From a virus, in the IMG/VR virus record IMGVR_UViG_3300017989_000139, positions 1 to 55,858 of that record: 55,858 nt of DNA, one strand, 5' to 3'. Below the pieces are notes generated by a model that was not told where the DNA came from, ran no database searches, and was given only the letters and a program-made list of their open reading frames with translations. The translations under genes were made by a program, and so were the position numbers. Of the stretch, positions 11,569 through 39,742 are shown one piece after another; the stretch's first letter is position 1; every line of letters starts with the position of its first letter.

Positions 11569-11838
11569 TCAAATTTTAGTAAGATCAAAAGAGGTCCATT
11601 TGAATGGATTTTTAAGTCGGGCTAGGTCCTTTGGATCGGCTATGCCGGGACGAACCATTTTCAAAGGTTTTTGGCTGTATTCAATGTCGTAATATGTTAC
11701 AAAATCGGCAGCGGTAGGCGTCACGGCCAGAGGAGGATAATTGCCCAAAGTATCCCCAATGTCGGTGTATAAACCAAGTCTTGCACCGGTTCTAGTATCG
11801 TTTTCAGTTAGCCACAATCGAAAATTAAGGAATTTCAT
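11569..11838 (-). CDS. hypothetical protein with CTS-like N-terminus
   Basis: An 89-aa protein starting MKFLNFRLWLTENDT, a variant of the F-x-x-W-L-x-E leader shared by many small proteins here and like the T4 capsid-targeting sequence. The rest (ADFVTYYDIEYSQKPLKMVR) is not recognised. ATGA overlap of 4 bp with the upstream DUF3008-like gene shows coupled translation. Confidence 0.6.
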   Translation of the reverse strand: MKFLNFRLWLTENDTRTGARLGLYTDIGDTLGNYPPLAVTPTAADFVTYYDIEYSQKPLKMVRPGIADPKDLARLKNPFKWTSFDLTKI

Positions 11839-12371
11839 ATCATTTTTTGGAGATCGTTCAAAGCTCCATGACCTCCACCTCCCGGAGCCGAAGGCCCAGT
11901 AATTAAATATCGTTTCTGTAAATCTGGATCAGTTGTACCTATCGCTGCATCTATATCAACAGGCTGAATGCCTACATTTCTTAAACGATCAGAAATGTCT
12001 TGCAAAACACTTGGGTTCACCGGCCACTGATTGTTTTGGGCTAGTCTTTCAAGATCGAAGATAACCTTTTGAACTATATCGTTTTTGTCTGTTCCCTGAG
12101 GAGGTATAGCAGTATCATCGGGACCATAAATTGGTCCTGATGATACCTCGTTCCTTCTTTTTAACCATTCTGAAAAAGTAACAAACCATTCGTTTTTTTT
12201 GCGTGGGAGGCCTTTTCTTTTTGTTTTAGCGAAATGCCGAAGTTGTTTTGCCGACATACTGTTATACATTTGTTTTGCTGCACCATATAAACTTCCTGGA
12301 TCGATTTCTCCACGTTTGGCTGCTAAAGCCATTGCTGCTGCCTTTTGTTGTTGTTTTGATTCTGCTGGCAT
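11835..12371 (-). CDS. DUF3008-like phage protein
   Basis: A 178-aa protein. Its first 65 residues (MPAESKQQQKAAAMALAAKR, then SMSAKQLRHFAKTKRKGLPR) fit the DUF3008 pattern 'MPavSkaQQk.mgmAla.krGei...MS.kqL.dFA.tkhkgLP', common in T4-like and other phages. A variable linker and the C-terminal segment PSAPGGGGHGALNDL follow. Possibly a DNA- or head-associated protein; function not established. It is followed by the 89-aa gene with a 4-bp overlap. Confidence 0.7.
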   Translation of the reverse strand: MPAESKQQQKAAAMALAAKRGEIDPGSLYGAAKQMYNSMSAKQLRHFAKTKRKGLPRKKNEWFVTFSEWLKRRNEVSSGPIYGPDDTAIPPQGTDKNDIVQKVIFDLERLAQNNQWPVNPSVLQDISDRLRNVGIQPVDIDAAIGTTDPDLQKRYLITGPSAPGGGGHGALNDLQKMI

Positions 12372-12378
12372 GATGTTC

Positions 12379-12918
12379 CTATTTTCGTTGAAAAAGAGAA
12401 ATGGTTGTCTTTGTGCCGTCCTTTGAACTAAAAATTATCTGGTTGATTTTTATGGAGTTATTGTCAAAAGGATCAAGGCCATCATATTTCTTACCCCTTC
12501 CTTTCTTGACGTAAGCAATAGTTACATGAGGTTTGTAGATTGGATGACTGCTGGTATACTTTAAGCTATCTCTTAGTTTCGCATTCAATTTGTGCAAATC
12601 AGGACTACGAACATCAATTTTAATTACATCATATTCATCATCTGAAAACAAAGATATTTTTCCCAATTTTATGTTTATGGGCTGAATACTCTTTAAGAGT
12701 TTTTTGACGGCATCCGGCTCGGAATCGTGGATTCCGTAAAGAACCGTGGCATGAATTTCATCTTCTCTTCCGAGTTCATGTAATTCATTATCTGGAATGT
12801 GAACCTTTCCCCATTTGATGATTTTATTTGCAAGAGCATGGGGTAAATTAACTTGTGTCGAGGAAAAGTCGTAGTTTGTGTTCTTCTTTTCTTGTAAAAA
12901 TTGCTGCCAAGTTTTCAT
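12379..12918 (-). CDS. 2H phosphoesterase (2'-5' RNA ligase superfamily) with capsid-targeting-like N-terminus
   Basis: A 179-aa protein. The two HxT motifs of the 2H superfamily are present: IHATVLYGIH (His56, Thr58) and PHVTIAYVKKG (His131, Thr133), 75 residues apart. The superfamily covers 2',3'-cyclic phosphodiesterases, 2'-5' oligoadenylate phosphodiesterases and T4 Acb1, which degrades CBASS cyclic nucleotides. The first ten residues, MKTWQQFLQE, nearly copy the T4 internal-protein targeting peptide MKTYQEFIAE that gp21 cleaves after Glu. The enzyme is therefore a candidate packaged and injected effector (inference). No Shine-Dalgarno; TATAAATG lies directly before the ATG. Confidence 0.8.
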   Translation of the reverse strand: MKTWQQFLQEKKNTNYDFSSTQVNLPHALANKIIKWGKVHIPDNELHELGREDEIHATVLYGIHDSEPDAVKKLLKSIQPINIKLGKISLFSDDEYDVIKIDVRSPDLHKLNAKLRDSLKYTSSHPIYKPHVTIAYVKKGRGKKYDGLDPFDNNSIKINQIIFSSKDGTKTTISLFQRK

Positions 12919-12930
12919 ACATTTATATAG

Positions 12931-12967
12931 GCACCTTTTCGCCCTTTGGGCGAAAAGGTGCTTTTTT
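12931..12967 (+). terminator. terminator hairpin in a divergent intergenic region
   Basis: Perfect stem GCACCTTTTCGCCC-TTT-GGGCGAAAAGGTGC followed by TTTTTT. It lies between the divergent starts at 12918 (minus) and 12981 (plus), with the T-run on the plus strand. It would stop plus-strand transcription arriving from the left just before the CTAAATA of the next gene. Confidence 0.85.
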
Positions 12968-12969
12968 AA

Positions 12970-12976
12970 CTAAATA
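12970..12976 (+). promoter_or_regulatory. candidate late promoter (CTAAATA)
   Basis: CTAAATA immediately after the terminator T-run and only 4 bp before the ATG at 12981. If it acts like a T4 late promoter, the transcript would be leaderless or nearly so. Confidence 0.4.
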
Positions 12977-12980
12977 AGAT

Positions 12981-13331
12981 ATGGAATTTTGCAAATGGCT
13001 AGAAAATACAGAGTCCATTCACCCGACATTGGAACGGATTACGCAAGATATGTGCAAAGGAGGAATTTGCACTCCTTGCGAACTCAATAGCGGTTTGTGC
13101 GATCAATGGGCAAATGAGGTTTTCGAAAGATTAACCGAAATGGGTATTGATGCCGAGATATGGTCCACCGTCTGGGAAAGATCTTATGCGGACCACATGT
13201 TTGTTAAAATCGGAAGTAAGTTTTATGACGCAGAAAATATAGATGGAGTAGATGACTATATGGAGCTTCCCTTTTTTCAGCGTTCTTTTGCTAAACGTGG
13301 CGTCCGAGAACCAGTCCACCGAATTATTTGA
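12981..13331 (+). CDS. CTS-like protein with a Cys-His-Asp triad pattern
   Basis: A 116-aa protein beginning MEFCKWLENTES, a short version of the shared F-x-x-W-L-E leader. After a Cys-rich stretch, LNSGLCDQWANEVFERL places a Cys (40) at a helix start, and ADHMFVKIGSKFYDAE supplies His72 and Asp83. This Cys-helix / His-strand / Asp-strand order is that of papain-like and transglutaminase-like folds, so a cysteine peptidase, deamidase or related activity is possible. No specific family recognised. It has no clear Shine-Dalgarno and lies directly after a late-type motif. Confidence 0.65.
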   Translation: MEFCKWLENTESIHPTLERITQDMCKGGICTPCELNSGLCDQWANEVFERLTEMGIDAEIWSTVWERSYADHMFVKIGSKFYDAENIDGVDDYMELPFFQRSFAKRGVREPVHRII

Positions 13332-13337
13332 TTGCTG

Positions 13338-13667: not shown

Positions 13668-13713
13668 AGAAGTAGGATGAAATGGTAGAATTTGTGGAAC
13701 ACGGGAGATTCAG

Positions 13714-13926: not shown

Positions 13927-14220
13927 TTAAGCTGTTCCCTTGATGAAATCGTGAAATCTTTTAATGGTGCCCTTCAATGTGGGTGTTACATTATAAGCTC
14001 GGTGTGTGTTAGTTACATACCATGTTTTACCATTTATTGTTGATTTCCAAACTGCTGGTGTGAGATTTCCTTCAGAATGATGCCATACTGCTTTGGATCG
14101 CATTACTTGTTCTCGTTCTTCGGGAGTTAATTGTTTGCGGTTTTTCTTGAGTGTTTTGAAATTAGGTTCCTTTCGACCATCATGTTTTTCTTCTATTATC
14201 CATTCGTAGAAACTTCTCAT
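13927..14220 (-). CDS. CTS-like small phage protein
   Basis: A 97-aa basic protein starting [15 protein letters not shown]. The first ten residues end in I-I-E, fitting the T4 capsid-targeting peptide and gp21 cleavage rule (hydrophobic-x-Glu). The rest ([20 protein letters not shown], then SPAVW-like [20 protein letters not shown] and [14 protein letters not shown]) resembles a hypothetical protein of cyanophages and other phages as I recall it. CATATATAAAATC precedes the ATG without a Shine-Dalgarno. Function unknown; possibly packaged. Confidence 0.7.
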
Positions 14221-16103: not shown

Positions 16104-17543
16104 TCAGATCACAAAATTGGCAATGCTCAATCTTGCGTAAAACTTCGCTCCCTCCCTAAGCAACTTTTTGCCGTACCTGGTAAGTATACCCTTTCGAGGA
16201 CAAAAGCTATCAGGATCAAGGACGACCGGAGTCTGTGTCAGCGGAACGTAAGGACAATAAAAATATCCAGAGTCCATATAGCTGTCACCCTTGTAACCCA
16301 TCAAGATTTGACCTGTTGGGAACAGAGGATCTTTGTAAAGTCGCCATCTGTTGTTCACAGTACCGACATATTGGATGCCGAGGCTGCTTGTGAAGGTCTC
16401 AGACGGAGCGGGTGCAAAACCGGCAGTTGCGGTCTCGAAGATCGAGGCAACTTCGGGGCTCGTTACGAGCCAGTTGCATCCACCGCGAAGAGTCTTACGG
16501 TGAACAATGTTGGTAACTTCAACGACCTTGACATAGAGGCTTTCATACTTTTCCTTGATTGTGTCACCAAGGGCGGTATTAAAGTCCCAAGAAGCAACCG
16601 TACCAGCGTTGTTACGAAGGTCGGTCAAAACTTCACGGTCAATTTCCAGGTTGATTTCTTGAGCCAAGACGGCGGTCAGTTCGGCCTCGGCATCAAGGTT
16701 ATGTTGTGAACGAAGGTCCTGTTGGGCCTCGTAGCTCCAGACAGCCTTGAGCTTTCTTGTCTTAGCAGCGATTTCTTCACTTTCAACAACCAGATTGATT
16801 TCTGGGAGATCTTGGTTGCATTCCATGTTGTATTCATACGACATGATGCAGTAGTTCTCACCAGGGGCACCGTTCCAGGTCAAGGTCATCTCGCCTGTGG
16901 TTAGGTCGAGAGTACCGGCAGTAACCTTAGGAGCCGGGGCACCAATGTCCGTGAAAGTAAAGTTGCTATTTTCGTCAACGACGAAGGTTTGAACTGCCAC
17001 TCCACCATCATAGATGGTTCCAGTGATTGTTCCAGCCAAAATTGGAGTGTGTTCCAAGGGGCTGTAAACAGAGAGAACATCAGCACCATCATCTGTAGAT
17101 GTGGTTTCGTTCTCAACCAACTGGTGGGAGTAGTAAATCGACAGATTGGCATCACCAGAAGCCAACTGTTGGAGGGAGTTAGCATCATCGCCAGGGAATC
17201 CAGCGTTGTTGTCGGCTCCTCTCACGTCGCCCTTGTTAGTCGAATAACGGAAACGCAGATAGTAGACCAAACCAGTTGGGCCGAGCAACGGTTGAACCGA
17301 GACGACCTTATTGGCGATCAACTGCGGGTAAATTCGTCTAACCAAAGGAATTGAAATTCGCTTAAACTGAGCGATGTCGCCTGTGTCTGTTGAAACTTCG
17401 TTCATTAGACGCTGATTTTCTAGAAGAACGGCGGTGCAAGAACGAGTGTAACGATCTTCAATGCCGTTCAGCAAACCAGTCTCGCCCCAACGACTTTCCA
17501 TGACGGCGGCTTCATTCAGAAATTTTGCATTTGCTGATTGCAT
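16104..17543 (-). CDS. major capsid protein, T4 gp23-like
   Basis: A 479-aa T4-type major capsid protein (HK97 fold). It starts MQSANAKFLNEAAVMESRWG, with DTGDIAQFKRISIPLVRRIYPQL, the conserved gp23 N-terminal region including PLVRRI.P.L. Later come VQPLLGPTGLVYYLRFRY, EINLEIDREVLTDLRNNAGT, RKTLRGGCNWLVTSPEVASI and a C-terminal GILTRYGKKLLREGAKFYAR. The insert at about 140-260 contains an Ig-like extension. An AAGGAG Shine-Dalgarno and a GATAAATA late motif are upstream. It follows scaffold and protease in the canonical gp21-gp22-gp23 order, so gp21 processing of its N-terminus is expected. Confidence 0.93.
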   Translation of the reverse strand: MQSANAKFLNEAAVMESRWGETGLLNGIEDRYTRSCTAVLLENQRLMNEVSTDTGDIAQFKRISIPLVRRIYPQLIANKVVSVQPLLGPTGLVYYLRFRYSTNKGDVRGADNNAGFPGDDANSLQQLASGDANLSIYYSHQLVENETTSTDDGADVLSVYSPLEHTPILAGTITGTIYDGGVAVQTFVVDENSNFTFTDIGAPAPKVTAGTLDLTTGEMTLTWNGAPGENYCIMSYEYNMECNQDLPEINLVVESEEIAAKTRKLKAVWSYEAQQDLRSQHNLDAEAELTAVLAQEINLEIDREVLTDLRNNAGTVASWDFNTALGDTIKEKYESLYVKVVEVTNIVHRKTLRGGCNWLVTSPEVASIFETATAGFAPAPSETFTSSLGIQYVGTVNNRWRLYKDPLFPTGQILMGYKGDSYMDSGYFYCPYVPLTQTPVVLDPDSFCPRKGILTRYGKKLLREGAKFYARLSIANFVI

Positions 17544-17557: not shown

Positions 17558-18463
17558 TTATTTATCTTTTTTAGTTCCCGCGAGGACCTGCATTTGAGCA
17601 AGCACGGCAGGATCTAAAGTCTCTACTAACGTTTTATCGGCCTGTGGCTTTTCTTCTGGAAGCTCTTCTTTATGCTCCTGGATGAGTTCACCATCGGCTG
17701 TTCGTCCTCTCCCCGTTGCGTTCTTCGCTTTCTGCTCTCTTTCTTGTCTGTTCTCGGTAGACTCAGTGAGCATTTGCTCTTGTTGACGGCAAACCTCATT
17801 GAGCTTTCCATTCTCTGTGCCAAGTCGAATATTTCTGGCTTCTAGGATCTTTACTTGGCTTCTCAGATCCTCAATAGCTTGTTGTGCTTCCTCAAGTTTT
17901 GCGTTGCAAACACTGTTGTAGTCGTCATCGGAAAGATAAGTAGAAACACTATCGATAACCTTATCCAGAACGACCTTGTGTTCAACTAGACGCGGGTCAC
18001 TTAGAACATCACGACGGACGCTTTCAGCGATTTCGGGTCCTTTATACTCCAAGAACTGGTGAATCTTGTTGATGAAGTATTCACGCATCTCCTGCAACTT
18101 GGTATTGAACTCTTCATACATATCGACATCGAGATTATCATTCTTTGCCTTTTCGGCTTGAAGCATCTCGAAAGCCTCTTGGTAGCCATCATTCATCGCA
18201 GATTCAAATTCTTTCTTCTGCGTTTCAAGACGACCACGAAGGTCCTTAATAATTGCGTAAGCTTCTTGGTATCCCTGCTCGCCGGTTTGTTCAGCTTGCT
18301 TAAGCTCTTCTGTAAACTCTTGATAGGCTTCATGAAGCTTTTCGGTATACTCCTTCTCCATGTCAGTCTTCGCTGTTTCCAGTTCGCTTTGCACGGCCTC
18401 GGTAACCTCCGCGACTTGCTCTTCAGGAAGTAATTTGCTCAACGCTTCAACGATTTTTTCCAT
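17558..18463 (-). CDS. prohead core scaffold protein, T4 gp22-like
   Basis: A 301-aa highly charged helical protein between the prohead protease and the capsid gene, the position of T4 gp22. It starts MEKIVEALSKLLPEEQVAEV, is rich in Glu, Lys and Gln with long coiled-coil stretches, and ends EKPQADKTLVETLDPAVLAQ MQVL. It would form the core around which the head assembles and then be degraded by gp21. Its start shares one base with the protease stop (TAATG), indicating tight coupling. A GATAAATA motif overlaps its end and drives the capsid gene. Confidence 0.85.
   Translation of the reverse strand: MEKIVEALSKLLPEEQVAEVTEAVQSELETAKTDMEKEYTEKLHEAYQEFTEELKQAEQTGEQGYQEAYAIIKDLRGRLETQKKEFESAMNDGYQEAFEMLQAEKAKNDNLDVDMYEEFNTKLQEMREYFINKIHQFLEYKGPEIAESVRRDVLSDPRLVEHKVVLDKVIDSVSTYLSDDDYNSVCNAKLEEAQQAIEDLRSQVKILEARNIRLGTENGKLNEVCRQQEQMLTESTENRQEREQKAKNATGRGRTADGELIQEHKEELPEEKPQADKTLVETLDPAVLAQMQVLAGTKKDK
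17559..17566 (-). promoter_or_regulatory. candidate late promoter of the capsid gene (GATAAATA)
   Basis: GATAAATA 16 bp upstream of the major capsid ATG, with AAGGAG between. One mismatch to the T4 late consensus. It would give the capsid gene its own strong late transcript. Confidence 0.5.
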
Positions 18464-19176
18464 TACTTTAACCTCGCTTGAATTTCTTTGGCCTTTTTAT
18501 GAACAATGCCACCAAGGCAAGCCTTTACCAGTTCTGCATTAACTGTATATAAGCCGCTGGACTCATTTTTAACAACATCGTCGTGTTGTTCGGGTGACAC
18601 GTTTTCACGTTTGTTACTAACAATCTGTTTTTGAAAGGCTGCGTTTGTGCTTGGATCGGCCACAGCATCAAACGTAATTAGCTTGTACGACTCACCAATT
18701 ACGAGGACTCCATTCTCATTAACCTTTCCATTTCCAACACCGCGACTACTGATACCAACTCTTACTCCATCGTTGAGCAAAGACTTGATAATTTTTCCCG
18801 CTGGTGTGTTAAGGATTATTCCCTCACCCATCAGAGTCTTGCCATCCCACCAGAGTTTTGTGATCTTGTGGCAGGCCTTCTCAAAATGGATAATAGAGTC
18901 CGTTGGGTGATCCAGTTCACCGACTAAACCGCCGTTTTTAATAACTTCATCGAGTTTTTGAACGTTCTTGTTTAGTACCGCATACGGATACATCCTCTTG
19001 TTTTTGTTGACCGCTTCGGCTTCCTGGAATTTGCCCCTGAATTTAAGGGAACTTCCAACCTCGGTCGATTCGTGAAGTACCATCTCATTCAAGATAGCAC
19101 CCACTGTTCCTCCTAGAATTAGTCGATCCTCATAGATCGTTCCGGGAGTCACATCATGCTCGATAAGCAATTCCAT
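18463..19176 (-). CDS. prohead protease, T4 gp21-like
   Basis: A 237-aa protease of the T4 gp21 (S78/U9-like) family, which matures the prohead and removes targeting peptides from internal proteins. Visible family motifs: LKFRGKFQEAEAVNKNKRMY PYAVL, GGLVGELDHPTDSIIHFEKA with the conserved His, GKTLMGEGIILNTPAGKIIK, and VGISSRGVGNG with the Ser. The start at 19176 is chosen because GGGAGG lies 5 nt before it; a TTG extension to 19203 is less likely. The recognised T4 cleavage rule (hydrophobic-x-Glu) is relevant to the many small proteins with such N-termini in this window. Confidence 0.92.
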   Translation of the reverse strand: MELLIEHDVTPGTIYEDRLILGGTVGAILNEMVLHESTEVGSSLKFRGKFQEAEAVNKNKRMYPYAVLNKNVQKLDEVIKNGGLVGELDHPTDSIIHFEKACHKITKLWWDGKTLMGEGIILNTPAGKIIKSLLNDGVRVGISSRGVGNGKVNENGVLVIGESYKLITFDAVADPSTNAAFQKQIVSNKRENVSPEQHDDVVKNESSGLYTVNAELVKACLGGIVHKKAKEIQARLK

Positions 19177-19192
19177 AGAACCTCCCATTAGA

Positions 19193-20935
19193 TTACTGGT
19201 CAACGACTAAGTCTGGTTCCTTGCCGTGATTCATCTTGTACGTTTGAGGAGTCACAGCAGCGGGACAATAAGGATTTTGCAATGCTGGCCACGTATCACT
19301 ACCGCCCCAGTGGGCTAGTTGATCCGAGTCCGTTTCAATTGCTTTCTCTCCTTTGATCTTGTAATCACCAAAAGGTGTTGGGACATATGGATTGTTCAAA
19401 GCTGGAAAGACATCAGGTCCACCCAGATTGCCATATGCTCGATTTCTCATGAGGTCTGCTTCGCCACCCTTGTAACTGGCTCCATCACTGGCAGGAGCAA
19501 CATCTCCCCAGTCGCCACTAGCATCTGCGGCGGGAGAATACTTCTGACGTGCTTTGTCAGCCATTGCGGGATGGTCACCACTGACTGTGATGTGTGGTGT
19601 GTTGCTGACGTTCCAATCCTTCGTTTCCAGATTGGTTTCAACCAATGTCCACAGCCACTCAGCAGCAGATTCCGCAACCTCAAGAGTAGGTTCAACTTCT
19701 TGTTGAACGATGGGCAGAAGCTCGTTCAAGTGCATGGCGGCTTCCGCTCTCAGAGGAGCATTCTTTTGCTCTGTCGCTAATGTGTGAACGTGTCGAAGTG
19801 CTTCGTAAAGATCAATAAAAACTTGCATTTCGAGGGTTACGTTCTCATCAAGTGATGGATAGAACTGGTCAACGACATTTTTGAAGACCAAGTAAGGATC
19901 TTCTGCATTCTCATCGACCCTAGCACCAGCGAGTTTCATCACTTTAGCTACACGATCAACAAACGTGTGATGGGCTGTTCGCAGAATGCCTTCGGCCATG
20001 AAATCACACATTTGGTCGTCGTAGTTGCTTGCACCGGCCATTTCCAAAGCCGACTTGATTGATTCGGAAAGTTCGTCTTGAGTTAAGTAAATGACTTGTG
20101 GCCACTTGCCAATAATGTTCTCAAGGGTTTCTTGCAGGCTGTTGTCGTCCGACAAAGCATTGTGCCGCTTAAGTTCAGCGACCGCCTGGGCGAATTGAGC
20201 GTCTTCCGAAAGCGTCTTTGCATTCATTCTCTTGCAAACACAGTCGGTGTTGAGAGTCTTCCAATCAAAAGAAAGGAGCTTCATTTCGTTTCTCAGTCGT
20301 GTAGTAGGTACACGAACACCAACCGGGTTGCCTCGCTCGTCATATCTGACTCGGGACTCGTTAATAACGGGTCCATGTTCTTTGTAGTCAATGTACTCGA
20401 AAACATGCTGGCATATCTGGCCCCAAGATTGAAGTACGTTCTCCTTACAGGAGAAAGGCCCACAGGGCTTCTTCTTCTTTTTCTTCTTGGCAATCTTGCC
20501 TAGTACCCCGCCTTTCGGGATCTCTATAGCACGTTCTTCTTTCCTTTCAATAAAGGTTCTGCGAGTTCTTGGGAGAGCTAGATATTCACTAAACAACTGG
20601 TTTGCCTTCTCTTCTTTGTCTTCCATCAAAGCATCGAGCATTTGAGCAACAATTTCACGTTGCTTTTTGTACTCGGTCTCTTCGTTAAGGACCAGTTCTT
20701 CAACATTATCAAATTCAATGTGGTTGTTCTTGACCTGATAATTGGCATGGATGTAATTGCCATCGCATGTCTCATAAAGAACGTCATTGGGTCCAAAACA
20801 ATGAAGCTGGGCACAATTCAATTGCAGTGCCTTAGCTAAGATTGGAGCGGCTTCAGCCAGTTCGACTTCGGCGGACGATAGCGAATCCTCTTCGATTCTC
20901 TCAAAAACATCGTAATTGATGAGTTTTTTCTTCAT
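19193..20935 (-). CDS. large virion-associated protein of unknown function
   Basis: A 580-aa acidic protein between portal and prohead protease. The N-terminal part is helical (SSAEVELAEAAPILAKALQL). A Lys block GKIAKKKKKKKPCGPFSCKE sits at about 147-166, followed by a helical middle. The C-terminal 130 residues contain a duplicated motif (GGPDVFPALNNPYVPTPFGD YK and GGSDTWPALQNPYCPAAVTP). T4 has the small gp67/gp68 at this position; this protein is far larger. Location and the TATAAATA motif 115 bp upstream argue for a late structural or assembly protein. Some regions (RTRRTFIERKEERAIE) could be processing sites. Confidence 0.75.
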   Translation of the reverse strand: MKKKLINYDVFERIEEDSLSSAEVELAEAAPILAKALQLNCAQLHCFGPNDVLYETCDGNYIHANYQVKNNHIEFDNVEELVLNEETEYKKQREIVAQMLDALMEDKEEKANQLFSEYLALPRTRRTFIERKEERAIEIPKGGVLGKIAKKKKKKKPCGPFSCKENVLQSWGQICQHVFEYIDYKEHGPVINESRVRYDERGNPVGVRVPTTRLRNEMKLLSFDWKTLNTDCVCKRMNAKTLSEDAQFAQAVAELKRHNALSDDNSLQETLENIIGKWPQVIYLTQDELSESIKSALEMAGASNYDDQMCDFMAEGILRTAHHTFVDRVAKVMKLAGARVDENAEDPYLVFKNVVDQFYPSLDENVTLEMQVFIDLYEALRHVHTLATEQKNAPLRAEAAMHLNELLPIVQQEVEPTLEVAESAAEWLWTLVETNLETKDWNVSNTPHITVSGDHPAMADKARQKYSPAADASGDWGDVAPASDGASYKGGEADLMRNRAYGNLGGPDVFPALNNPYVPTPFGDYKIKGEKAIETDSDQLAHWGGSDTWPALQNPYCPAAVTPQTYKMNHGKEPDLVVDQ

Positions 20936-21094: not shown

Positions 21095-21394
21095 ATGAAA
21101 ACATTTACTAGCTACATCAAGCTCCTAGAATCAGATGAGCTTGACACCCCAGAAAATCAAGACGATCTACTTGCAAAGCTTGTCCGACTGGCTTGGAGAA
21201 GATACGCACAAGAAACGAAAGACTTCTTTTCCCAATTAGGAAGCAAAGATCCCGATATTAAAGATCTCCTAACAAAAGCCGAACGACCCACAGACGAAAT
21301 GCCTCCAGATCGAGTGCCCGACGATCTGGGTGATGATATGGATGTCGTCGCACCACCCGCCGCAGATAGTAGTGCGGGATTACAAGAAGATTAG
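21095..21394 (+). CDS. CTS-like small acidic protein
   Basis: A 99-aa protein beginning MKTFTSYIKLLESDE, which shares MKT-aromatic and a hydrophobic-x-Glu end with the T4 targeting peptide MKTYQEFIAE. A helical segment (LAKLVRLAWRRYAQETKDFF) and an acidic Pro/Asp-rich tail (MPPDRVPDDLGDDMDVVAPP) follow. Unknown family. It sits within the head block on the opposite strand, and its stop faces a bidirectional terminator. Confidence 0.65.
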   Translation: MKTFTSYIKLLESDELDTPENQDDLLAKLVRLAWRRYAQETKDFFSQLGSKDPDIKDLLTKAERPTDEMPPDRVPDDLGDDMDVVAPPAADSSAGLQED

Positions 21395-21401: not shown

Positions 21402-21440
21402 AAGAGCCGCTCCCGCTTTGCGGGAGCGGCTCTTATTTTA
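21402..21440. terminator. bidirectional terminator
   Basis: AAGAGCCGCTCCCGC-TTT-GCGGGAGCGGCTCTT followed by ATTTTAT, between convergent genes ending at 21394 (plus) and 21438 (minus). Confidence 0.85.
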
Positions 21441-21665
21441 TCCCTTTCCCTTTGGATTTTTACCTTTCTTAAGGTTTTCCTTGTGGATGTCTCCCTTTTT
21501 GAATCTCATCGCTAGAGCTTTTCTCCTGGGAGTACAGGTTTTCTTTGTCATTGGTGTGCAGTATCCCTCATGTTCGGGATCGACAGCCTTTTGAATCCAT
21601 TTTTTCTTGGCTTCGTCAAGAAGTTCAGGATCGATTTCTTCTAAAAAGTCGTTAAAATTTCTCAT
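21438..21665 (-). CDS. CTS-like small basic protein
   Basis: A 75-aa protein beginning MRNFNDFLEEIDPELL, with a ten-residue leader ending L-E-E as in T4 internal proteins. The rest is strongly basic (KKKWIQKAVDPEHEGYCTPM, RRKALAMRFKKGDIHKENLK), similar to the small Lys/Arg-rich 'KKWIQKA' domains seen in many phages, and probably binds DNA. Its start overlaps the portal stop by 4 bp (ATGA-type). It would make sense as a packaged, DNA-associated internal protein (inference). Confidence 0.72.
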   Translation of the reverse strand: MRNFNDFLEEIDPELLDEAKKKWIQKAVDPEHEGYCTPMTKKTCTPRRKALAMRFKKGDIHKENLKKGKNPKGKG

Positions 21666-24600
21666 TCTTCCTCGCTGTAATCTACATCTTCAGCGTCTTG
21701 CTGTTGACTGTAGTTTTGAATTTCAAGATCAAATCGTTTGATGTCTGCCGTTTCTACTTCTGGCAATGGTGAAGCACCACCACCCGCACCGGCTTCTGAA
21801 CCTGGAGGTGTCCCTTCTACCCCCGGTTCACCTGGAGGTGCTTCTTCTGCTCCTGGTTCGCCGCCACCCAACATCGGGCTAGGTCCACCAGCTTCCGTTC
21901 CCATTTCTTGTTCACCGGATGGGGCTCCTGGTACACCGACGCCCATAAGCTGTGGATTCTGTCCGATGATTTGCAGTTTCAGTTCTTGTAGTTTCTGGAT
22001 GGTATTGCGGGCGATGATCTGTTGAACCTCATCTTCCGGCATGTTCATAAAGCGTGTCAGAAGATCATAGTCGGCCATTATCATCGAACCTTTCAAGCTA
22101 GTAATGAAGTTCAATCGGGCTTGCAAAACTTCACTTCTACTCATTTCCCTCCAATCCGAGGGAGGAGTCATCCTAATCTCAAGATCTTGGTAGGATTCCT
22201 CAGGATATCCCCTGAGTTCCAGATGCCGTTCACAAACTTCGATAATACCATCCACATAATGAGCCTGGATTCTTTCGATCATACGAGCGAATCGCACGTC
22301 TTGGGCCGAAAGAGAAATCCTTGTTTGTTGGGGATCGCTGTTGTTAAAATAATTCTGTGGAAAGTTTAAAGCGGTGAAAAGCTTGTTTCTGAAGTAGAGA
22401 GCATCGTCAATTTCACCAAGATTTTGGGCACCTTGGAGGGTGTCGATTCTCGTATTAGAATTGGGTCGAATCGGTAGCCAGTAATCTTCATCGGCTGCTG
22501 GAGCATGCCATCTTTCTTCAACGACATTGGCCCCTTGACCACCGCCTCTTGTTCTGGCGACTTTCTTTTTACGGAATTGATCTTTCATCTTTTCGATGAA
22601 AGCTTCTGCTTTAAATGGCGGAAGTTTTCCAACATCAATGTAGAAAATTCTTCTTTCTGGGGCTCGGGTATTGTGAACCGGAATCCCATTGGCTATGAAG
22701 TTGTGTTCTTTATTGTCTACTGTAATATCGTAGACCTCTTCCCTGCCTGCATGTTCGACACTTTCTAGAGTTTCATATTCACCAAGCGGCTTTTTTGAAA
22801 TATAGACAGCCCAGGCTTTTGTTGGAGGCATCGTCCTTCCAGGTTCAATTTCGTGTCCTCCATCTCGCTCGCGATATCGTATGTGCCCGCTCGCCAAACC
22901 GGCAGAATGCCAAAGTTCCTTGATGTCTTCTATAAGTTGCTTATTGGCCATTTCGAACTCGGCAGTCCATAAACCCGAAGGCAAGATCTTAATGGCCGCA
23001 TCCGCATCTGCAAGACCTTCTAGAAAAGCTATTCTGATATGTTTCGGAGCCGAGAATACCCATTCGGGGATTCTTTTTGCATAAGTGCCGGGAATATACC
23101 CCATCTTTTTAAGGATTCTGGACCCCACAACAGAATGAACACAGAAATTACCGAGTCCCTCTGTTTTGCGTTTTCTGCGTTCTTGATTGAAACCAACTTT
23201 GCCAAAGTATCTTTTAAGTAATTTGGCATATCTAGAGTTAACTTCGTGATCGGAACCGGCAGAAAACGCAATGGCATATTCGTTTTTCCTCACACTCCCG
23301 TCGCCTATAAGGAATCCGAACAATCTTGCAAAATCGTTGTCTACAAAATCTGGCAATTTGATTTTTTCTGGTTTAATTTCACCCTTATTCTGAACTTTAA
23401 GATTTTCAGGGTTTAGACCGAAAACATCGCAAACTTCAGTGGCTTGGTCATAAGGCAACGCTTTTCCTTCGCTATAAAGAAATTGTTTGGTTCTGCCGGG
23501 GGTGCTTTGACACAGTCTCATCAATTCGCTTTTATTTTGATATTTTTTCTCGCGAAACAGTTTTCTCTGCCCCCGACTGAGTTTAGCCCATTTTTCTCCG
23601 ACAATTCTTGGAATCGCTACTGGCTTATTGCTCTCTCTCGTTACATTGATTAGTTGGTCTCGGCCCGGAATCAAATCTTGCACATCAACGTATTGAATGA
23701 TTCCGTTTCGGCTCACCAATACAGGATGGGTTCCCGTGGCCCGAAGGTCATTGTGTTTAGATTTTATTCGATAGACATCCTTTTCCCCATTGTTGATAAC
23801 GGCTCTCACGCGAGATCTTACTGTTCTGTCTTGCTCTTTGGTGAAGGTTATGTCGCCAATACGGATATCCTTAATGTACTTCCATCCTTCATCGACTCGG
23901 ATTCTAGCATCACCAGTCAAACAGAGTCGGTAGACTACCATTGCATCTTCCATCAGCCTTAATTGATGGGCGGGCCCGCGAGCAGGCTCGATCAAAGATT
24001 GTCCATATGGATAAAATGCTTTGCGATCATCTCCAATTCGGAAATGAACGATTTGTTTTGGAGCAAAGCGAATGGCGGTGGATTGTTGTAGATCCGCCTC
24101 CGTTGCTTTTGTTACTTCGTTTCGTGTAAGGGCTTGATAGTCGGGACCATCTTTACCTTGCTGAAACTCAACCAAGCGACACTTGGTAGTTTCGATTCGG
24201 TACATGCTATCCGGTGGTAGTTCCTGTACACCAAGGATTCCGTCCTTTGGATTCTCTGGGTTGGTCAGAAGTTCATAGAAACCATCACCAAAGATACACA
24301 ATCTTTTCAGGTAATTCCATGATCTTCGGTCAAGATTGAGCATTCTTCTACTGAACAAAAGCCACTCTAGTTCCTTCTTGATTTCCTGGCTTTTGCACTT
24401 AAGTTCGAATACATGGCCATTGTCCCCAATCTGGCAGTTATGAACGATCCCGGCACTATCGGTACAAAAATTCTCATGATCTTTGACCGAAAGGTCATAA
24501 ACATTAACTTCGTCATGTCGTTCGATATTGACTATTCGTTTGAAATCATGTTTACGACTTAATTCCCGATATTCGGCCATCGTAAAGCCAGCCTCTTCAA

Positions 24601-25444
24601 TCCATTTTTTGAATCGATCCCATTTGATGCCCGTGACTCTTTCGACTTCGGTAGTTGTTGCTCCATCTTCAAGCAATCGGGCAGCCATATTGACACGACT
24701 TTGTCGTTTGGTAACCTCTCCAGTTCGCCATTCATCTATGAACTGTCTTTCGCCTTTCCATCCGTCTTTGTAGGTGAAAATTCTTGGGAATACGTTTTTG
24801 GTTAACTTGTTAACGATGCGATTGGCATCCATTTTGTAAAATGCCTTCATCTCATCGTACATCTCGATGCCTCCCATCTCGATCCAGGTTCCATCCATTC
24901 GCAGAACTCGGTGGTCATCGGTAGCTATAAGTTGTGTGCCATCATGAAAGGTCACGCGAATTGTTTTGGCTTTTTTTACGAATCGAGGTTCATAAGCCCA
25001 GGCAAGAGTGTAATCGTCTTTGTCAAAATCCCAGGCATATACTAGGAATGGTTTTGGATTCTTTTTCCATTCCCTAGCCAGTTTTGCAATTTTTACATAG
25101 CCATCCCAAACGGTTGCCACTTTGGTATTAGCCCCCACACAAGCCTCTTCGGCAATTACGGTCATTGCCATTTCGATTTCAGCCAGATTTCGTAGACGCT
25201 CGTATTCTTTGTATCGAGCCAATCGGTTGGTGACGGTAGATAGGTCAATAAAATCATTACTATCGTGAAGTCGGATGCTGCCACGGGGGCCACCACCCCA
25301 AGCTTCGCCTCGCAAATCGGGGATCGCCTCAGGCATACCGATACCGGCACCACTTGGTTTACCCTTGGTTATGTTCCTTTGCTTTTCCAGGGGACCTTGT
25401 TCAAAGTTGTAGGTCCAAAGTTTATAAAAATCCCACCACGGCAT
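21662..25444 (-). CDS. portal protein, T4 gp20-like, with two inteins
   Basis: A 1260-codon frame encoding a portal of about 607 aa after removal of two inteins (residues 102-336 and 508-925). Extein features of T4-type portals: RLARYKEYERLRNLAEIEMA, RSWNYLKRLCIFGDGFYELL, PARGPAHQLRLMEDAMVVYR, TRAPERRIFYIDVGKLPPFK and FPQNYFNNSDPQQTRISLSA QDVRF. The C-terminal 120 residues are a Pro/Gly/Glu-rich tail longer than in T4 (524 aa). The portal forms the DNA entry ring at the head vertex. A GATAAATA motif and GAGAGGT Shine-Dalgarno lie upstream. Unspliced precursor would be non-functional, so both inteins should be active. Confidence 0.95.
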   Translation of the reverse strand: MPWWDFYKLWTYNFEQGPLEKQRNITKGKPSGAGIGMPEAIPDLRGEAWGGGPRGSIRLHDSNDFIDLSTVTNRLARYKEYERLRNLAEIEMAMTVIAEEACVGANTKVATVWDGYVKIAKLAREWKKNPKPFLVYAWDFDKDDYTLAWAYEPRFVKKAKTIRVTFHDGTQLIATDDHRVLRMDGTWIEMGGIEMYDEMKAFYKMDANRIVNKLTKNVFPRIFTYKDGWKGERQFIDEWRTGEVTKRQSRVNMAARLLEDGATTTEVERVTGIKWDRFKKWIEEAGFTMAEYRELSRKHDFKRIVNIERHDEVNVYDLSVKDHENFCTDSAGIVHNCQIGDNGHVFELKCKSQEIKKELEWLLFSRRMLNLDRRSWNYLKRLCIFGDGFYELLTNPENPKDGILGVQELPPDSMYRIETTKCRLVEFQQGKDGPDYQALTRNEVTKATEADLQQSTAIRFAPKQIVHFRIGDDRKAFYPYGQSLIEPARGPAHQLRLMEDAMVVYRLCLTGDARIRVDEGWKYIKDIRIGDITFTKEQDRTVRSRVRAVINNGEKDVYRIKSKHNDLRATGTHPVLVSRNGIIQYVDVQDLIPGRDQLINVTRESNKPVAIPRIVGEKWAKLSRGQRKLFREKKYQNKSELMRLCQSTPGRTKQFLYSEGKALPYDQATEVCDVFGLNPENLKVQNKGEIKPEKIKLPDFVDNDFARLFGFLIGDGSVRKNEYAIAFSAGSDHEVNSRYAKLLKRYFGKVGFNQERRKRKTEGLGNFCVHSVVGSRILKKMGYIPGTYAKRIPEWVFSAPKHIRIAFLEGLADADAAIKILPSGLWTAEFEMANKQLIEDIKELWHSAGLASGHIRYRERDGGHEIEPGRTMPPTKAWAVYISKKPLGEYETLESVEHAGREEVYDITVDNKEHNFIANGIPVHNTRAPERRIFYIDVGKLPPFKAEAFIEKMKDQFRKKKVARTRGGGQGANVVEERWHAPAADEDYWLPIRPNSNTRIDTLQGAQNLGEIDDALYFRNKLFTALNFPQNYFNNSDPQQTRISLSAQDVRFARMIERIQAHYVDGIIEVCERHLELRGYPEESYQDLEIRMTPPSDWREMSRSEVLQARLNFITSLKGSMIMADYDLLTRFMNMPEDEVQQIIARNTIQKLQELKLQIIGQNPQLMGVGVPGAPSGEQEMGTEAGGPSPMLGGGEPGAEEAPPGEPGVEGTPPGSEAGAGGGASPLPEVETADIKRFDLEIQNYSQQQDAEDVDYSEEE
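22670..23923 (-). other. intein 2 of portal, with LAGLIDADG homing endonuclease
   Basis: Residues 508-925 (418 aa) of the portal precursor. It begins CLTGDARIRVDEGWKYIKDI (Cys1, block A), then block B LRATGTHPVLVS. It ends VYDITVDNKEHNFIANGIPV HN, with terminal Asn925, followed by Thr926 as the +1 nucleophile. The two dodecapeptides are LFGFLIGDGSV and FLEGLADADAAI. It should be able to home into intein-less portal alleles. Confidence 0.95.
24437..25141 (-). other. intein 1 of portal, without recognisable LAGLIDADG
   Basis: Residues 102-336 (235 aa) of the portal precursor. It starts CVGANTKVATVWDGYVKIAK, has block B QLIATDDHRVLRMDGTWIEM, and ends NVYDLSVKDHENFCTDSAGI VHN, followed by Cys337. 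The middle holds a short insert with a helix-turn-helix look (LEDGATTTEVERVTGIKWDR) instead of an endonuclease, suggesting a degenerate or minimal intein. Confidence 0.93.
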
Positions 25445-36413: not shown

Positions 36414-36602
36414 ATGAACGATGATGGGTGGTATTACGATGACGACGACGAATGGTTGGACGACATCAACGATCCCGACGATGATTTAGAAGAATTGGAC
36501 GATAAGCTGGATGATCTAGAAGAAGAAGAAGAAGAAGAAGAAGAAGAAGATTGTTCAGATTTGGATGAACCGGAAGACGACTGGGTGGACCTAGATGATT
36601 AG
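36414..36602 (+). CDS. extremely acidic small protein
   Basis: A 62-aa protein in which about 39 residues are Asp or Glu, with four Trp and two Tyr (MNDDGWYYDDDDEWLDDIND). It includes ten consecutive Glu encoded by a pure GAA repeat. AGGAGG lies before the ATG. Such polyacidic proteins can mimic DNA or bind basic proteins; no specific family is recognised. Its stop overlaps the convergent 36599 gene by 4 bp. Confidence 0.7.
   Translation: MNDDGWYYDDDDEWLDDINDPDDDLEELDDKLDDLEEEEEEEEEEDCSDLDEPEDDWVDLDD
36519..36548 (+). repeat. GAA trinucleotide repeat (10 units)
   Basis: Ten perfect GAA codons inside the acidic gene. Slippage here would change the length of the Glu run without frameshift. 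Confidence 0.9.
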
Positions 36603-36787
36603 ATTCGCCTCTTTTTTCGTTTTCTAGTGGGCGGCAATTTGCCTTCTGGATTTTCAGGATCACTTTCTGATTTACCGTGAAAATCTGCAAAACCCAATGA
36701 ACCCACCTTGGTTGGGTCTTGTTTGGGCGGTGGTTGACCGCCCGTAGATCCCCAAGTTTCCAACCATTTCTTGAAAGACAATTTCAT
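36599..36787 (-). CDS. CTS-like small basic protein
   Basis: A 62-aa protein starting MKLSFKKWLETWGSTGGQPP. The first ten residues end W-L-E, matching the shared targeting-like leader. The remainder is Pro/Gly/Lys-rich and ends TRKRKKRRI. It would be disordered and could bind DNA. The upstream CTAGATAATGTC lacks a Shine-Dalgarno. Unknown function; candidate packaged peptide. Confidence 0.6.
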   Translation of the reverse strand: MKLSFKKWLETWGSTGGQPPPKQDPTKVGSLGFADFHGKSESDPENPEGKLPPTRKRKKRRI

Positions 36788-36791
36788 GACA

Positions 36792-37310
36792 TTATCTAGT
36801 CAAAACTGTCTTATTTAAAGCCTCAATTCCCTTAATTTCAACCCAATGAAGAATATGAATATAGGGGCCATTCTTGAATTTTGCCTTTCGTTGTTGTTCG
36901 AATCTCAGGTATTGCGAGCCATGGTCACCAATATCTCTTAAATTGCCAGGATGCGGTGGCTTCTTGTTTTCTTCATACCAAGCCTTCTGTTGATCCTTAG
37001 ACATTTCAGCCCATTCTTCAAGACTCGGTGCGGGTTTTTCTTCCTCTTTTAGTTGAGGAAGTCTAATAGCGTAGCCTTTGGTAGTTTTTTTAATTGATTT
37101 GCTATTCTTTTTGTCATTGATGAGTTGGTATTCACAAAAAACTTCTGAAGCTGGCTCGGTGCTTTTCCCACTTTTATGTAATACCCAAACAGGAACAGAC
37201 ACTCCCATTGTAATAATTGACTCTCCTTCAATGAGATCGTAGCGTTCTTTTCTGGTTAAAAAAATATTGTGAAGAACCGTTAGTACAATTTTATTGTCTG
37301 GAGCAATCAT
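36792..37310 (-). CDS. hypothetical protein
   Basis: A 172-aa protein, MIAPDNKIVLTVLHNIFLTR ... IKGIEALNKTVLTR. A beta-rich N-terminal part (SIITMGVSVPVWVLHKSGKS) is followed by a charged linker (LEEWAEMSKDQQKAWYEENK) and a C-terminal beta part. GGAGG lies 5 nt before the ATG. No family recognised. Confidence 0.65.
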   Translation of the reverse strand: MIAPDNKIVLTVLHNIFLTRKERYDLIEGESIITMGVSVPVWVLHKSGKSTEPASEVFCEYQLINDKKNSKSIKKTTKGYAIRLPQLKEEEKPAPSLEEWAEMSKDQQKAWYEENKKPPHPGNLRDIGDHGSQYLRFEQQRKAKFKNGPYIHILHWVEIKGIEALNKTVLTR

Positions 37311-37342: not shown

Positions 37343-38302
37343 ATGAAAAAACGATTGGATTTCGTCAAAGTGTTCTTCGTGTCGTTCGGCATTACTATTC
37401 TAGCTCTATTGCTAATTTTTGGCAATTCGAAAAACGATGAGATCATTGGAAGATGGAAGCCTCCAACTGAAGACGTTATCGAAATGCCTATTTTGCGTGA
37501 TAGCAAACCCTCCAAAGCTATCCGACAAATAGCTCCTGAAGAAAATCGAAGTGCAGAGGTCAGGGAATATCTAGCACCTTCGCTCAAAATACGGGTAAGC
37601 AACGCAAGTGGATCTGGCACTATCACTGGATATGACCCCCGTACAGGAGAAGCATATGTTTCTTCTTGTGGTCATTTATGGGGCGGAAGTAGATCTGCCG
37701 AGGAACTTAGAAATAATCCGGTTTTCTGTGAATTTGTTACTTGGTATCACAATAACGTCAAACTTTCTGAACCAAAAAGATACAAAGCTCAAGTTCTCTT
37801 TTGGAGTAATGATCGAGGATATGATTGTAGTCTTCTTAAATTCACTCCTGACTGGGTTCCCACATTTTTTCCTATAGCTCCGCGAGACTACCAACTTACC
37901 CCTGGCATAATGCTGCATTCTTGTGGATGTGATGGCGGAAGAGAAGTCGCACATTATGATGTTGAATTTGTCGAATATCGTGGTGTTGACTTGATAACCC
38001 GCCGTAATAGCCCCCGACCAGGACGTTCAGGAGGAGGATTGATGTCTTCAGACGGTTATTACATTGGCACTTGCTGGGGGACTTCCGATACGAGTTCCGG
38101 TGGCGGGGTTGGTTATTTTACTCCCTTGAAGGCAATTCATCATATGTATGCGAAAAATGGCTATGATTTTCTGTTAAATATGTCTACCCTTGGACGAGCT
38201 AGAACTATTCCAATTCGTGACTGGATGAATCCGAAGCAAGAGTGGGAACCAGAATATATTCCTATTCCGGGGCGACCTAGAATCCCATTGCCAATTCGTT
38301 AG
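37343..38302 (+). CDS. membrane-anchored trypsin-like serine protease
   Basis: A 319-aa protein with an N-terminal signal anchor (FVKVFFVSFGITILALLLIF). The chymotrypsin-fold triad can be seen: His111 in YVSSCGHLWGG, Asp161 in RGYDCSLLKF and Ser229 in PGRSGGGLMSSDG (G-x-S-G-G). KIRVSNASGSGTITGYDP before it is the usual first strand. It should act outside the cytoplasm. The start at 37343 is preferred over GTG 37337 because AAGGAAGG spacing fits. It is the third peptidase of different class within 9 kb, suggesting a proteolytic strategy against the host envelope or exported proteins. Confidence 0.88.
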   Translation: MKKRLDFVKVFFVSFGITILALLLIFGNSKNDEIIGRWKPPTEDVIEMPILRDSKPSKAIRQIAPEENRSAEVREYLAPSLKIRVSNASGSGTITGYDPRTGEAYVSSCGHLWGGSRSAEELRNNPVFCEFVTWYHNNVKLSEPKRYKAQVLFWSNDRGYDCSLLKFTPDWVPTFFPIAPRDYQLTPGIMLHSCGCDGGREVAHYDVEFVEYRGVDLITRRNSPRPGRSGGGLMSSDGYYIGTCWGTSDTSSGGGVGYFTPLKAIHHMYAKNGYDFLLNMSTLGRARTIPIRDWMNPKQEWEPEYIPIPGRPRIPLPIR

Positions 38303-38547
38303 TTATCAGGTCGAGCAAGTTGTTCTTCCCACCAATCAAGTTCGTCTTTTATGTTGGGAACATTGTTCATTTTTAGGATTTCTTTAACGGCAATCAGAAC
38401 TTCTTCTCGGGGCAATTTGTCGAATTGCTCCCAATCATCGGCGGTAGCTTGATTGTGCATGACCTTGTAGATCGACATTGCCAAAGGAATTGGCACATCG
38501 CCAGGATGAGCAAACATCTCGTTCATGAATTGTGAAAAGCTTTTCAT
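38299..38547 (-). CDS. CTS-like small protein
   Basis: An 82-aa protein starting MKSFSQFMNEMFAHPGDVPI. The ten-residue leader ends M-N-E. The rest is helical (AMSIYKVMHNQATADDWEQF, LIAVKEILKMNNVPNIKDEL). An AGAGG Shine-Dalgarno precedes the ATG at 38547. The start lies 2 bp after the stop of the J-domain gene, so they form an operon. No family recognised. Confidence 0.68.
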   Translation of the reverse strand: MKSFSQFMNEMFAHPGDVPIPLAMSIYKVMHNQATADDWEQFDKLPREEVLIAVKEILKMNNVPNIKDELDWWEEQLARPDN

Positions 38548-38548
38548 G

Positions 38549-39742
38549 TTACCTCTTAAATAGTTGTTTGTATTGATCTGCAATTTCAGATGGAACTGGT
38601 TTTCCCGCATCAATTGCTGCTCCGATTTGTCGCCAATACTCTTGGTTATTCGCAGTTACGTCTGTTTTTCCTTGATTACGTCGTAGTTCCTGATATTGGC
38701 CGCGAGTCATTTTCCATACCGGCTTTTCTTCCTCAATCCCCGCCTTTCTTCGAACCCATTTGATGGCACTATCTAAGATACCGGGAGTCAACCTACCATA
38801 TGGTGACGACTCTATTTTGATTTCATGTATTTTACCCTGAAATCTACTTCTACTAACCAAGAGAAATACTTTGGGCTGTAGTTTGATAACCTCGCCTTCA
38901 ACTGTTCTCGGGCCTTGATTTTCGGGCAAGCCGTAGTAGACGTTTCGACCACTGTAGAGTCGTTGAAGTCCGTTTTGAGATAAGTAGACTTCAACAGCAG
39001 ATCTTTTCATCCCCACACCTTTTTGTTGTTTGCGTTTAGGTGGAGCTTTGAAACTGATTGAACGATAGCCAAATTCGCCTCCGATGCCGAACATCCTTCG
39101 TGTTGCAATATTGCCCTCACTCAATGGATAGAAATAGGTAATCCAGCCTTCTTTCCAGTTTTCTTTTACAATTGCAGCGACAATATTAGTCGGATAAGTA
39201 GCATTATCCATCTTCATGGTTTTTTTGATGAGATCTATGACCCCTTCAAAATTATCTTTGCCATATTTTCTCATACTACGAGTCATTTCGGCACTCCCTA
39301 TAGAAGCATCCGAAAACCTAAGCAAAGTAAATGGAAGTCTCTCGGTTTTCTGTCTTAGAACAAATTGAAAATAGCCAAGATCTACAATTTGCTGGGCGAA
39401 TGTTTCTATATCGCTTTCCGAATAGCTTTGAGCCCCCATTCGGGCTCCGGGAGTTGGGGAAATGGGGGGACTCACATGAGACACCTCCCCGGCTCTTGGT
39501 AGTTGTTGTCCTATGAATTGGACCAATCTTTCATAGGCATTTGCTATTTTCTTAAATTTAGATACCGCCTCAGGTTCGCCCGGATTAAGATCAGGATGCC
39601 ATTTTTTAGCAAGGGCCCGATAAGCTATATCGAGAGTATCCTTATCTAAATTTTTACCAGCGAGATTTTCGAGACCCATGTGTTGCATGGCCTCGTAGGG
39701 GTCCATCTGAATTGCTGCTTCAAACCATTTTCTGAAATCCAT
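38549..39742 (-). CDS. J-domain protein with CTS-like N-terminus
   Basis: A 397-aa protein. The start MDFRKWFEAAIQMDPYEAMQ resembles the shared targeting leader (F-x-x-W-F-E). A DnaJ J-domain follows, with the diagnostic HPD (YRALAKKWHPDLNPGEPEAV, His49-Pro50-Asp51) and KFKKIANAYERL. J-domains activate Hsp70 (DnaK) ATPase. The remaining 300 residues are unrecognised and contain basic stretches (KAPPKRKQQKGVGMKRSAVE). CTAAATACCTAT precedes the ATG with no Shine-Dalgarno. If packaged, it could recruit host DnaK at the moment of infection (inference). Confidence 0.82.
   Translation of the reverse strand: MDFRKWFEAAIQMDPYEAMQHMGLENLAGKNLDKDTLDIAYRALAKKWHPDLNPGEPEAVSKFKKIANAYERLVQFIGQQLPRAGEVSHVSPPISPTPGARMGAQSYSESDIETFAQQIVDLGYFQFVLRQKTERLPFTLLRFSDASIGSAEMTRSMRKYGKDNFEGVIDLIKKTMKMDNATYPTNIVAAIVKENWKEGWITYFYPLSEGNIATRRMFGIGGEFGYRSISFKAPPKRKQQKGVGMKRSAVEVYLSQNGLQRLYSGRNVYYGLPENQGPRTVEGEVIKLQPKVFLLVSRSRFQGKIHEIKIESSPYGRLTPGILDSAIKWVRRKAGIEEEKPVWKMTRGQYQELRRNQGKTDVTANNQEYWRQIGAAIDAGKPVPSEIADQYKQLFKR

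Follow-up and report, generated by a model that had tools for sequence, protein, structure and literature searches.

Leader-bearing proteins and head genes in the window

We analysed a stretch of 55,858 nucleotides (IMG/VR virus record IMGVR_UViG_3300017989_000139, positions 1 to 55,858; hereafter the window), in which nine proteins begin with short leaders, or tags, that resemble the capsid-targeting sequence of the phage T4 internal proteins (Table 1). Profile matches to a gp23-like capsid protein, a gp21-like protease, a portal and a terminase mark the window as a fragment of a T4-type phage. Positions 7668-55858 are part of a 135-kb contig from the same phage (G001) at 100% identity, and positions 1-7625 are matched at 99.8%. 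For the capsid protein, 384 relatives were confirmed in IMG/VR; the best 80 of these 384 share at least 82% identity, and some lie on contigs of up to 532 kb. The nearest record of the phage collection is the uncultured phage LR756511 (595 kb, 79%). Judged by these sequences, the lineage is T4-type and has large genomes.

Table 1. Leader-bearing proteins, head genes and late-promoter-like boxes in the window, by position.
Feature	Position	Strand	Remarks
Small protein, tagged	11569..11838	-	Leader MKFLNFRLWLTE at 11803-11838; G005 homologue begins MEFKEWLRLNE
2H phosphoesterase, Acb1/LigT-like, tagged	12379..12918	-	Leader MKTWQQFLQE at 12889-12918
CTATATA box	12924..12930	-	5 nt before AUG of 12918
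CTAAATA box	12970..12976	+	4 nt before AUG of 12981
Protein with conserved C-H-D residues, tagged	12981..13331	+	Leader MEFCKWLE at 12981-13004; papain/C39-like by eye
VWHH/VWKS-domain protein, tagged	13927..14220	-	Leader at 14191-14220; G014 homologue has its own diverged leader
Major capsid protein gp23	16104..17543	-	PHROG major head protein 1e-80; FLNE (E11) and LMNE (E49) sites
Putative prohead core/scaffold protein	17558..18463	-	Between protease and capsid genes
Prohead protease, T4 gp21 / Peptidase_S77	18463..19176	-	S77 96.5 bits (cut-off 27); PHROG head maturation protease 6e-50
Small acidic protein	21095..21394	+	Leader MKTFTSYIKLLE, weakest of the nine
Small protein, tagged	21438..21665	-	Leader MRNFNDFLEE at 21636-21665, strict pattern; few-base overlap with portal gene end
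62-residue protein, basic tail, tagged	36599..36787	-	Leader MKLSFKKWLE at 36758-36787
CTAGATA box	36793..36799	-	5 nt before AUG of 36787
Small protein, tagged	38299..38547	-	Leader MKSFSQFMNE at 38518-38547
J-domain protein, tagged	38549..39742	-	Leader MDFRKWFE at 39719-39742; G011 homologue begins MNFRKWLNE
CTAAATA box	39748..39754	-	5 nt before AUG of 39742

The original prediction, made from the letters of the window, had placed leaders at the starts of at least nine otherwise dissimilar proteins. All nine that it listed are in frame at the given starts and strands, and the proteins show no mutual BLASTP match at E ≤ 0.01. A leader form shared by all nine was borne out for eight, which fit the strict pattern defined below; MKTFTSYIKLLE at 21095 does not, and its one support is a 35%-identical homologue in contig G008 that begins MKRFTDYFIEQE. 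The start at 38547 is an internal ATG within a longer open reading frame (ORF) that begins with TTG. Six of the nine proteins were retained by the ORF caller as strict hits; those at 36787 and 38547 also fit the pattern, but their ORFs overlap other retained ORFs. Four of the ten strict hits in G001 fall outside the window.

The gp21-like protease named in the same prediction was likewise confirmed: its start, 19176, is an in-frame ATG inside the ORF 18463-19203, and Peptidase_S77 was found above the cut-off both here and in 18 of 18 relatives tested. The neighbouring product of 17558..18463 is gp22-like by its position and glutamate-rich look only, and no PHROG match was found for it. Among 45 distinct N-terminal segments of capsid protein relatives, the first of the two sites, [FLY]LNE within the first 22 residues, occurs in 43, and the second, ENQxL[MIFY]NE directly before the conserved body, in all 45. 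In the capsid protein of this phage, the sites read FLNE and L(M/I)NE, and the leaders resemble them.

Enrichment of the leader pattern and its separability from cargo

We wrote the leader as a strict pattern, M-x(1-6)-[FWY]-x-x-[FWY]-[LIMVF]-x(0-1)-E, which was framed after the finding had been seen; its fair tests are nine contigs other than G001 and 70 loci. The main test set consisted of ten long contigs of the window lineage, including G001 (the window itself, being contained in G001, was not counted). The 70 further loci formed a replication set, in which ORFs that agreed in all of their 40 C-terminal residues entered the count a single time, and from which ORFs at least 70% identical to ORFs of the ten contigs were removed to give a stricter set.

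Across the ten contigs, the pattern occurs at 119 of 5,265 candidate starts versus 19 of 10,208 internal methionines (p = 4e-37; odds ratio 12.4). When its elements were permuted into 1,260 orderings, for which the median is 10, the pattern itself came out on top. The enrichment was also seen without G001 (109/4,936 starts versus 18/9,627 internal methionines), in G001 alone (10/329 versus 1/581), in the 70 loci (31/1,168 versus 4/2,504) and in their stricter set (26/894 versus 4/1,684). The string FxxWLE was found at 30 starts and at none of 9,311 internal methionines. In total, 105 ORFs of the ten contigs carry the strict pattern, 3-19 per contig. The same method gave four ORFs in T4, three in KVP40, two in S-PM2, five in P-SSM2, two in T5 and none in SPO1 (0 of 387 starts). 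The four T4 hits are two MKTYQEFIAEA proteins, which we take to be IPII and IPIII, gp61.1, and one probable chance hit. Annotated as hypothetical, gp61.1 (L285:467-631; T4 18966-19130) begins MKTFKEFIKED and may be a further capsid-targeted protein of T4.

Homologues of strict hits that do not themselves fit the pattern keep its aromatic core in 36 of 42 cases, compared with 352 of 2,488 ORFs of the background. This comparison was made after exclusion of the primase, NUDIX and G008_32176 clusters, and its 42 homologues include four tandem paralogues from a single contig. For 64 of the 105 tagged proteins, no homologue was found among the genomes compared.

The proteins behind the leaders could be compared most fully for the 2H protein at 12379..12918. 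It matches the Pfam families 2_5_RNA_ligase2 (1.6e-8, 35.2 bits) and Acb1 (5.6e-7, 29.8 bits), and both HxT motifs are invariant across nine aligned 2H sequences. In its AlphaFold model, residues 1-15 are disordered (predicted local distance difference test, pLDDT, <50) and the remainder takes up a 2H fold. Its best PDB sequence matches are Acb1 chains, while Foldseek places LigT/CPDase structures above Acb1. Like the anti-CBASS nuclease Acb1, the protein has a predicted 2H fold and two HxT motifs; unlike Acb1, it bears a leader. That leader differs among the window, G014, G003, G005 and G004, as well as in LR745206, LR756502 and LR756504 (eight phages or contigs in all). In the first five of these, QFL is invariant, and the third residue ahead of its Phe is Trp or Phe. 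The 2H protein lacks a leader in LR756508, Maribacter phage Colly_1 and Microbacterium phage Cece, has one that looks degraded in LR756511, and occurs as a domain inside long proteins at two further loci, L269 and L281. A search of viral contigs returned its own contig and one domain within a long ORF.

The protein at 12981..13331 aligns with a leaderless protein of Pseudomonas phage Phabio, and has one relative in viral contigs besides its own and weaker matches in three other Pseudomonas phages; it has no Pfam match, and its model (mean pLDDT 64) gave no fold match. The VWHH domain of the protein starting at 14220 recurs in five other contigs, in four as the C-terminal part of a longer ORF and in the fifth without a leader; it was found in none of 50,697 phage records, and no occurrence in bacterial genomes was confirmed. 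For the J-domain protein, the phage records held one short match. Since VWHH and 2H domains lie inside longer proteins elsewhere, some phages appear to carry the same domains in other packages. Both the homologue comparison and the predicted disorder of residues 1-15 indicate that the tag is appended, and that the leader is separable from its cargo. Locus L187 (G014:169016-177625) has a tandem array of five paralogues, each about 570 residues long and with its own diverged leader, which in four stands before a GLEHR.FNK segment.

The late-promoter-like box, and inserts and a candidate mobile element of the window

Many tagged genes have a CTANATA box close to the start codon. Of the 105 tagged genes, 27 have such a box ending 2-8 nt ahead of the start, versus 79 of 2,164 other ORFs, with a peak at 4-5 nt. 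The association came out more strongly in the reverse test: the tag core was found in 48 of 80 ORFs with a box 4-5 nt before the ATG versus 181 of 2,491 without one; it was present in 19/40 at 7-9 nt, 5/26 at 10-14 nt and 6/76 at 15-23 nt, the last being the background level. The association of box and tag core recurred in the 70 loci (13/20 versus 68/608) and in their stricter set (10/15 versus 54/436). An abutting box was found before no ORF of T4 or KVP40 and before five of P-SSM2, none of them tagged. Late sigma factors resembling gp55 are encoded by eight of the ten contigs, including G001; on G003 (532 kb), two ORFs are gp55-like, 413429 and 286244. The T4 late promoter has the consensus TATAAATA, and with the spacing of T4 late promoters, transcription of the boxed genes would start at or next to the AUG. 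TATAAAT is given as the T4 late promoter sequence in the accessible text of PMC9004378.

At locus L068, a 53-nt repeat runs across the box, start codon and tag (together, the header) at five places. Two genes of this locus, 11271 and 12211, are identical at 47 of 52 nt across the header and have cargos without BLAST similarity. In steps of 15 nt, the two agree at 5/15 positions ahead of the shared block, at 14/15 and 15/15 within it, and at 0-3/15 past nucleotide 45. A third gene, 9683, has a cargo 94% identical to that of 11271 over 77 residues and a leader matching at 38 of 52 nt. With nearly the same cargo and a differing leader, the leader of 9683 (MKTFNEML, missed by the strict pattern) has therefore diverged or been replaced. 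Among pairs of tagged starts within contigs, 6 of 3,990 share at least 38 of 52 nt, all six without cargo similarity, versus 7 of 456,600 other start pairs, of which four are paralogues and three involve gene 9683. These counts suggest to us that the header moves as one unit of tag and box. We are mildly inclined to go further and propose that a portable header of about 60 nt, composed of box, 4-5 nt, AUG and tag, confers late leaderless expression, a translation start and virion delivery, and that recombination copies it from one cargo to another, unrelated one, so that phages can keep adding injected enzymes.

Apart from the leaders, the window contains insertions and candidate mobile elements. 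The portal protein (21662-25444) has an insert at residues 516-925 that is absent from nine of nine relatives and has an intein-like end (IPVHN/T); a second intein-like end (VHNC, around residue 336) lies in a region common to the relatives. In the ORF 45348-47462, an insert at about residues 184-552 with the intein-like beginning CLVPGTKIYTKRG splits a protein that has 334-347 residues in eight relatives. At 5874-7507, two neighbouring ORFs of the phage resemble, on inspection by eye, the TnpA and TnpB of an IS200/IS605 element.

Probable capsid targeting and its alternatives

The T4 internal proteins IPI-IPIII and their capsid-targeting sequence have been described (PMC9026906, PMC9391042, PMC12373910). 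According to the accessible text of PMC9026906, residues 4 and 7 of the T4 leader act in targeting, residues 8 and 10 matter for processing, and gp21 cleaves after L/I-x-E; Asp at residue 10 blocks cutting and leaves targeting unaffected. The T4-like layout proposed for the leaders agrees well with these positions. They are short and N-terminal, with two aromatics three apart followed by an aliphatic residue, the pattern is N-terminally enriched, and a gp21-family protease is encoded in the same genome. The leaders are thus very probably capsid-targeting propeptides of the T4 internal-protein type.

The sequences themselves show the tag, its position, its enrichment and modularity, the protease and the association with the box; from them we infer packaging, core binding, cleavage, injection, leaderless transcription and anti-defence roles. 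The F-x-x-W/F/Y-L element, that is, two aromatics three apart plus an aliphatic residue, would bind the prohead core, and the tagged protein would therefore be built into the prohead. The gp21-like protease would then cut after the following Glu, and the mature protein left in the head would be injected with the DNA. The tag is a portable module on unrelated proteins, and in many tagged genes a late-promoter-like box lies so near the AUG that the mRNA would be leaderless. Here as in T4, a ten-residue N-terminal leader, with putative counterparts of targeting positions 4/7 and processing positions 8/10, and a gp21-family protease go with dissimilar cargos. In T4 there are three such proteins (at least ten capsid-targeted proteins, three of them blocking GmrSD enzymes, are reported for T-even phages in the accessible text of PMC12373910), whereas the contigs analysed here have 3-19 strict-pattern ORFs each. 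The known targets of the T4 proteins are GmrSD enzymes, while the cargo here comprises many enzyme families; in addition, the second aromatic is often Trp (59/105), and a late-type box abuts the AUG in many genes. Giant phages of the SPN3US/phiKZ type also package head proteins that are cut after Glu by an S77-like protease, steps that here are predicted from sequence; most of their propeptides are far longer, several exceeding 100 residues (accessible text of PMC5694885), in contrast to 8-12 residues here.

What the tag would deliver was examined by Pfam scans of 40 proteins, picked by interest from the 105 strict hits in the ten contigs, and of ten window ORFs (the nine leader proteins and 11835-12371). 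The families found were Acb1/2H, DnaJ (two, including 38549..39742 at 7.5e-12), NUDIX, C39/C70 peptidase, ART-PolyVal, HAD_SAK, NIF phosphatase, GNAT, cyclic-phosphate receiver, PolyA_pol, AAA_33, Radical_SAM, Sigma70 region 4 and DUF3293, together with weak SAM-lyase matches; the remaining scanned proteins had weak matches or none. Among ten cargos, PADLOC gave two candidate-defence matches. These families lend support to the suggestion of an effector set, which would be packaged and co-injected. Such effector types overlap with those of the polyvalent proteins of phages, which include ADP-ribosyltransferases, GNATs and peptidases and are predicted to be delivered with the DNA (Iyer et al. 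2017, accessible text of PMC5512222), and VWHH and 2H domains stand in longer proteins of some other contigs or phages. Polyvalent proteins have several effector domains per polypeptide, whereas here the domains form separate short proteins, each with its own tag: the 2H and J-domain cargos of the window have one recognised domain each, and the other window cargos no Pfam domain above the cut-off. Two scanned proteins deserve separate mention. A 529-residue protein with sigma-70 region 4 matches (L096:11917-13506, contig G009) has the tag MIKFKDFVES and is a possible packaged sigma factor, and 11835-12371 encodes a DUF3008 protein without an N-terminal tag that has an internal VTFSEWLKRRNEV stretch shortly after the DUF3008 domain.

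Several observations weigh against capsid targeting or narrow it. The nearest permuted pattern, a close variant of the strict one and the runner-up, still scores 95; chance would account for about 10 of the 119 hits, probably including the primase-like ORFs G003_310238 and G008_64900; and the pattern catches two of T4's three internal proteins. The Glu of the strict hits is fixed by the pattern's construction. The residue at P3 before it, in the 105 leaders, is Trp (35), Leu (29), Phe or Tyr (26), Ile (6), Val (5) or Met (4). With Leu or Ile in 35, the cut rule would be looser than T4's L/I-x-E. Some homologues have an Asp or a displaced Glu (FLVDG in G003, FLANE in G005). We sought a clean correlation of S77 protease and tag and did not find one: LR756508 and Colly_1 have S77 matches above the cut-off and an untagged 2H protein, LR756511 has S77 and the degraded leader, and three records of 635-642 kb outside the lineage have a tagged 2H protein and S77 matches of 20-25 bits, under the cut-off of 27. 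The box is unevenly shared (9 of 17 tagged genes in G003, 1 of 11 in G009 and 0 of 8 in G014), and many cargos have no assigned function, which qualifies the reading as an effector set.

The least improbable alternative is that the tag does send proteins to the prohead, where they mainly serve assembly as structural or DNA-condensing core components and do not act on the host. Tagged proteins of about 60 residues with Lys/Arg-rich tails recur by eye, the protein at 36599..36787 looks like these small basic proteins of relatives, and a few of the small cargos may be internal proteins that are basic and bind DNA; the 64 proteins without homologues and the many without a Pfam match also fit such a role. 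Enzymes of the 2H, ART-PolyVal, C39 peptidase, NUDIX, HAD_SAK, PolyA_pol and GNAT families, on the other hand, would be unexpected in a scaffold. As a general account we consider this alternative unlikely; it is likely true of a subset only. It is quite improbable that the motif addresses proteins elsewhere, such as to the tail, the membrane or a replication body: FxxWL helices could be generic binding peptides, but the leaders match the T4 targeting residues as well as FLNE in the capsid protein of the phage itself, and the gp21-like protease is in the same gene cluster.

The strong association with an abutting box and the DNA-level header repeats of L068 would also suit a conserved nucleotide signal for translation start on leaderless mRNAs, with the amino acids as a by-product. 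Yet both Phe, six Leu and both Glu codons are used, the first aromatic varies between positions 3 and 8, a box at 2-8 nt from the start is missing in 78 of the 105 tagged genes, and T4 has the same tag with no such box in its 202 ORFs. The varied codons and the variable first aromatic led us to reject a pure nucleotide signal, which we regard as very improbable. Finally, chance or ordinary N-terminal composition is almost certainly not the explanation: a looser core without Glu occurs in 7% (with the aliphatic residue) to 14% (without it) of background ORFs, so that little can be read into a single weak leader, but the permutation, internal-methionine, control-genome (SPO1 and T4) and replication tests all contradict a leader at chance frequency.

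Capsid targeting by a short leader is already known from T4, and the tag described here is a much expanded variant of it. The original prediction is well supported, and the tag stands on many more proteins than the nine first noticed. Three aspects are apparently new: how large and how diverse in enzymes the tagged set is, a late-type box that abuts the AUG, and the signs of joint travel of tag and box; no report of an expanded repertoire or an abutting late box was found in the literature searched, outside which lay most subscription papers and all preprints. If the leaders are indeed capsid-targeting propeptides, the tag would be a sequence-readable list of uncharacterised proteins injected by large T4-type phages, from which first-wave anti-defence and host-takeover enzymes could be picked out of metagenomes without culture. 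Short targeting peptides would then be on offer for loading phage heads with proteins, and a header of promoter and tag would explain how a new gene is recruited to the virion in one step.

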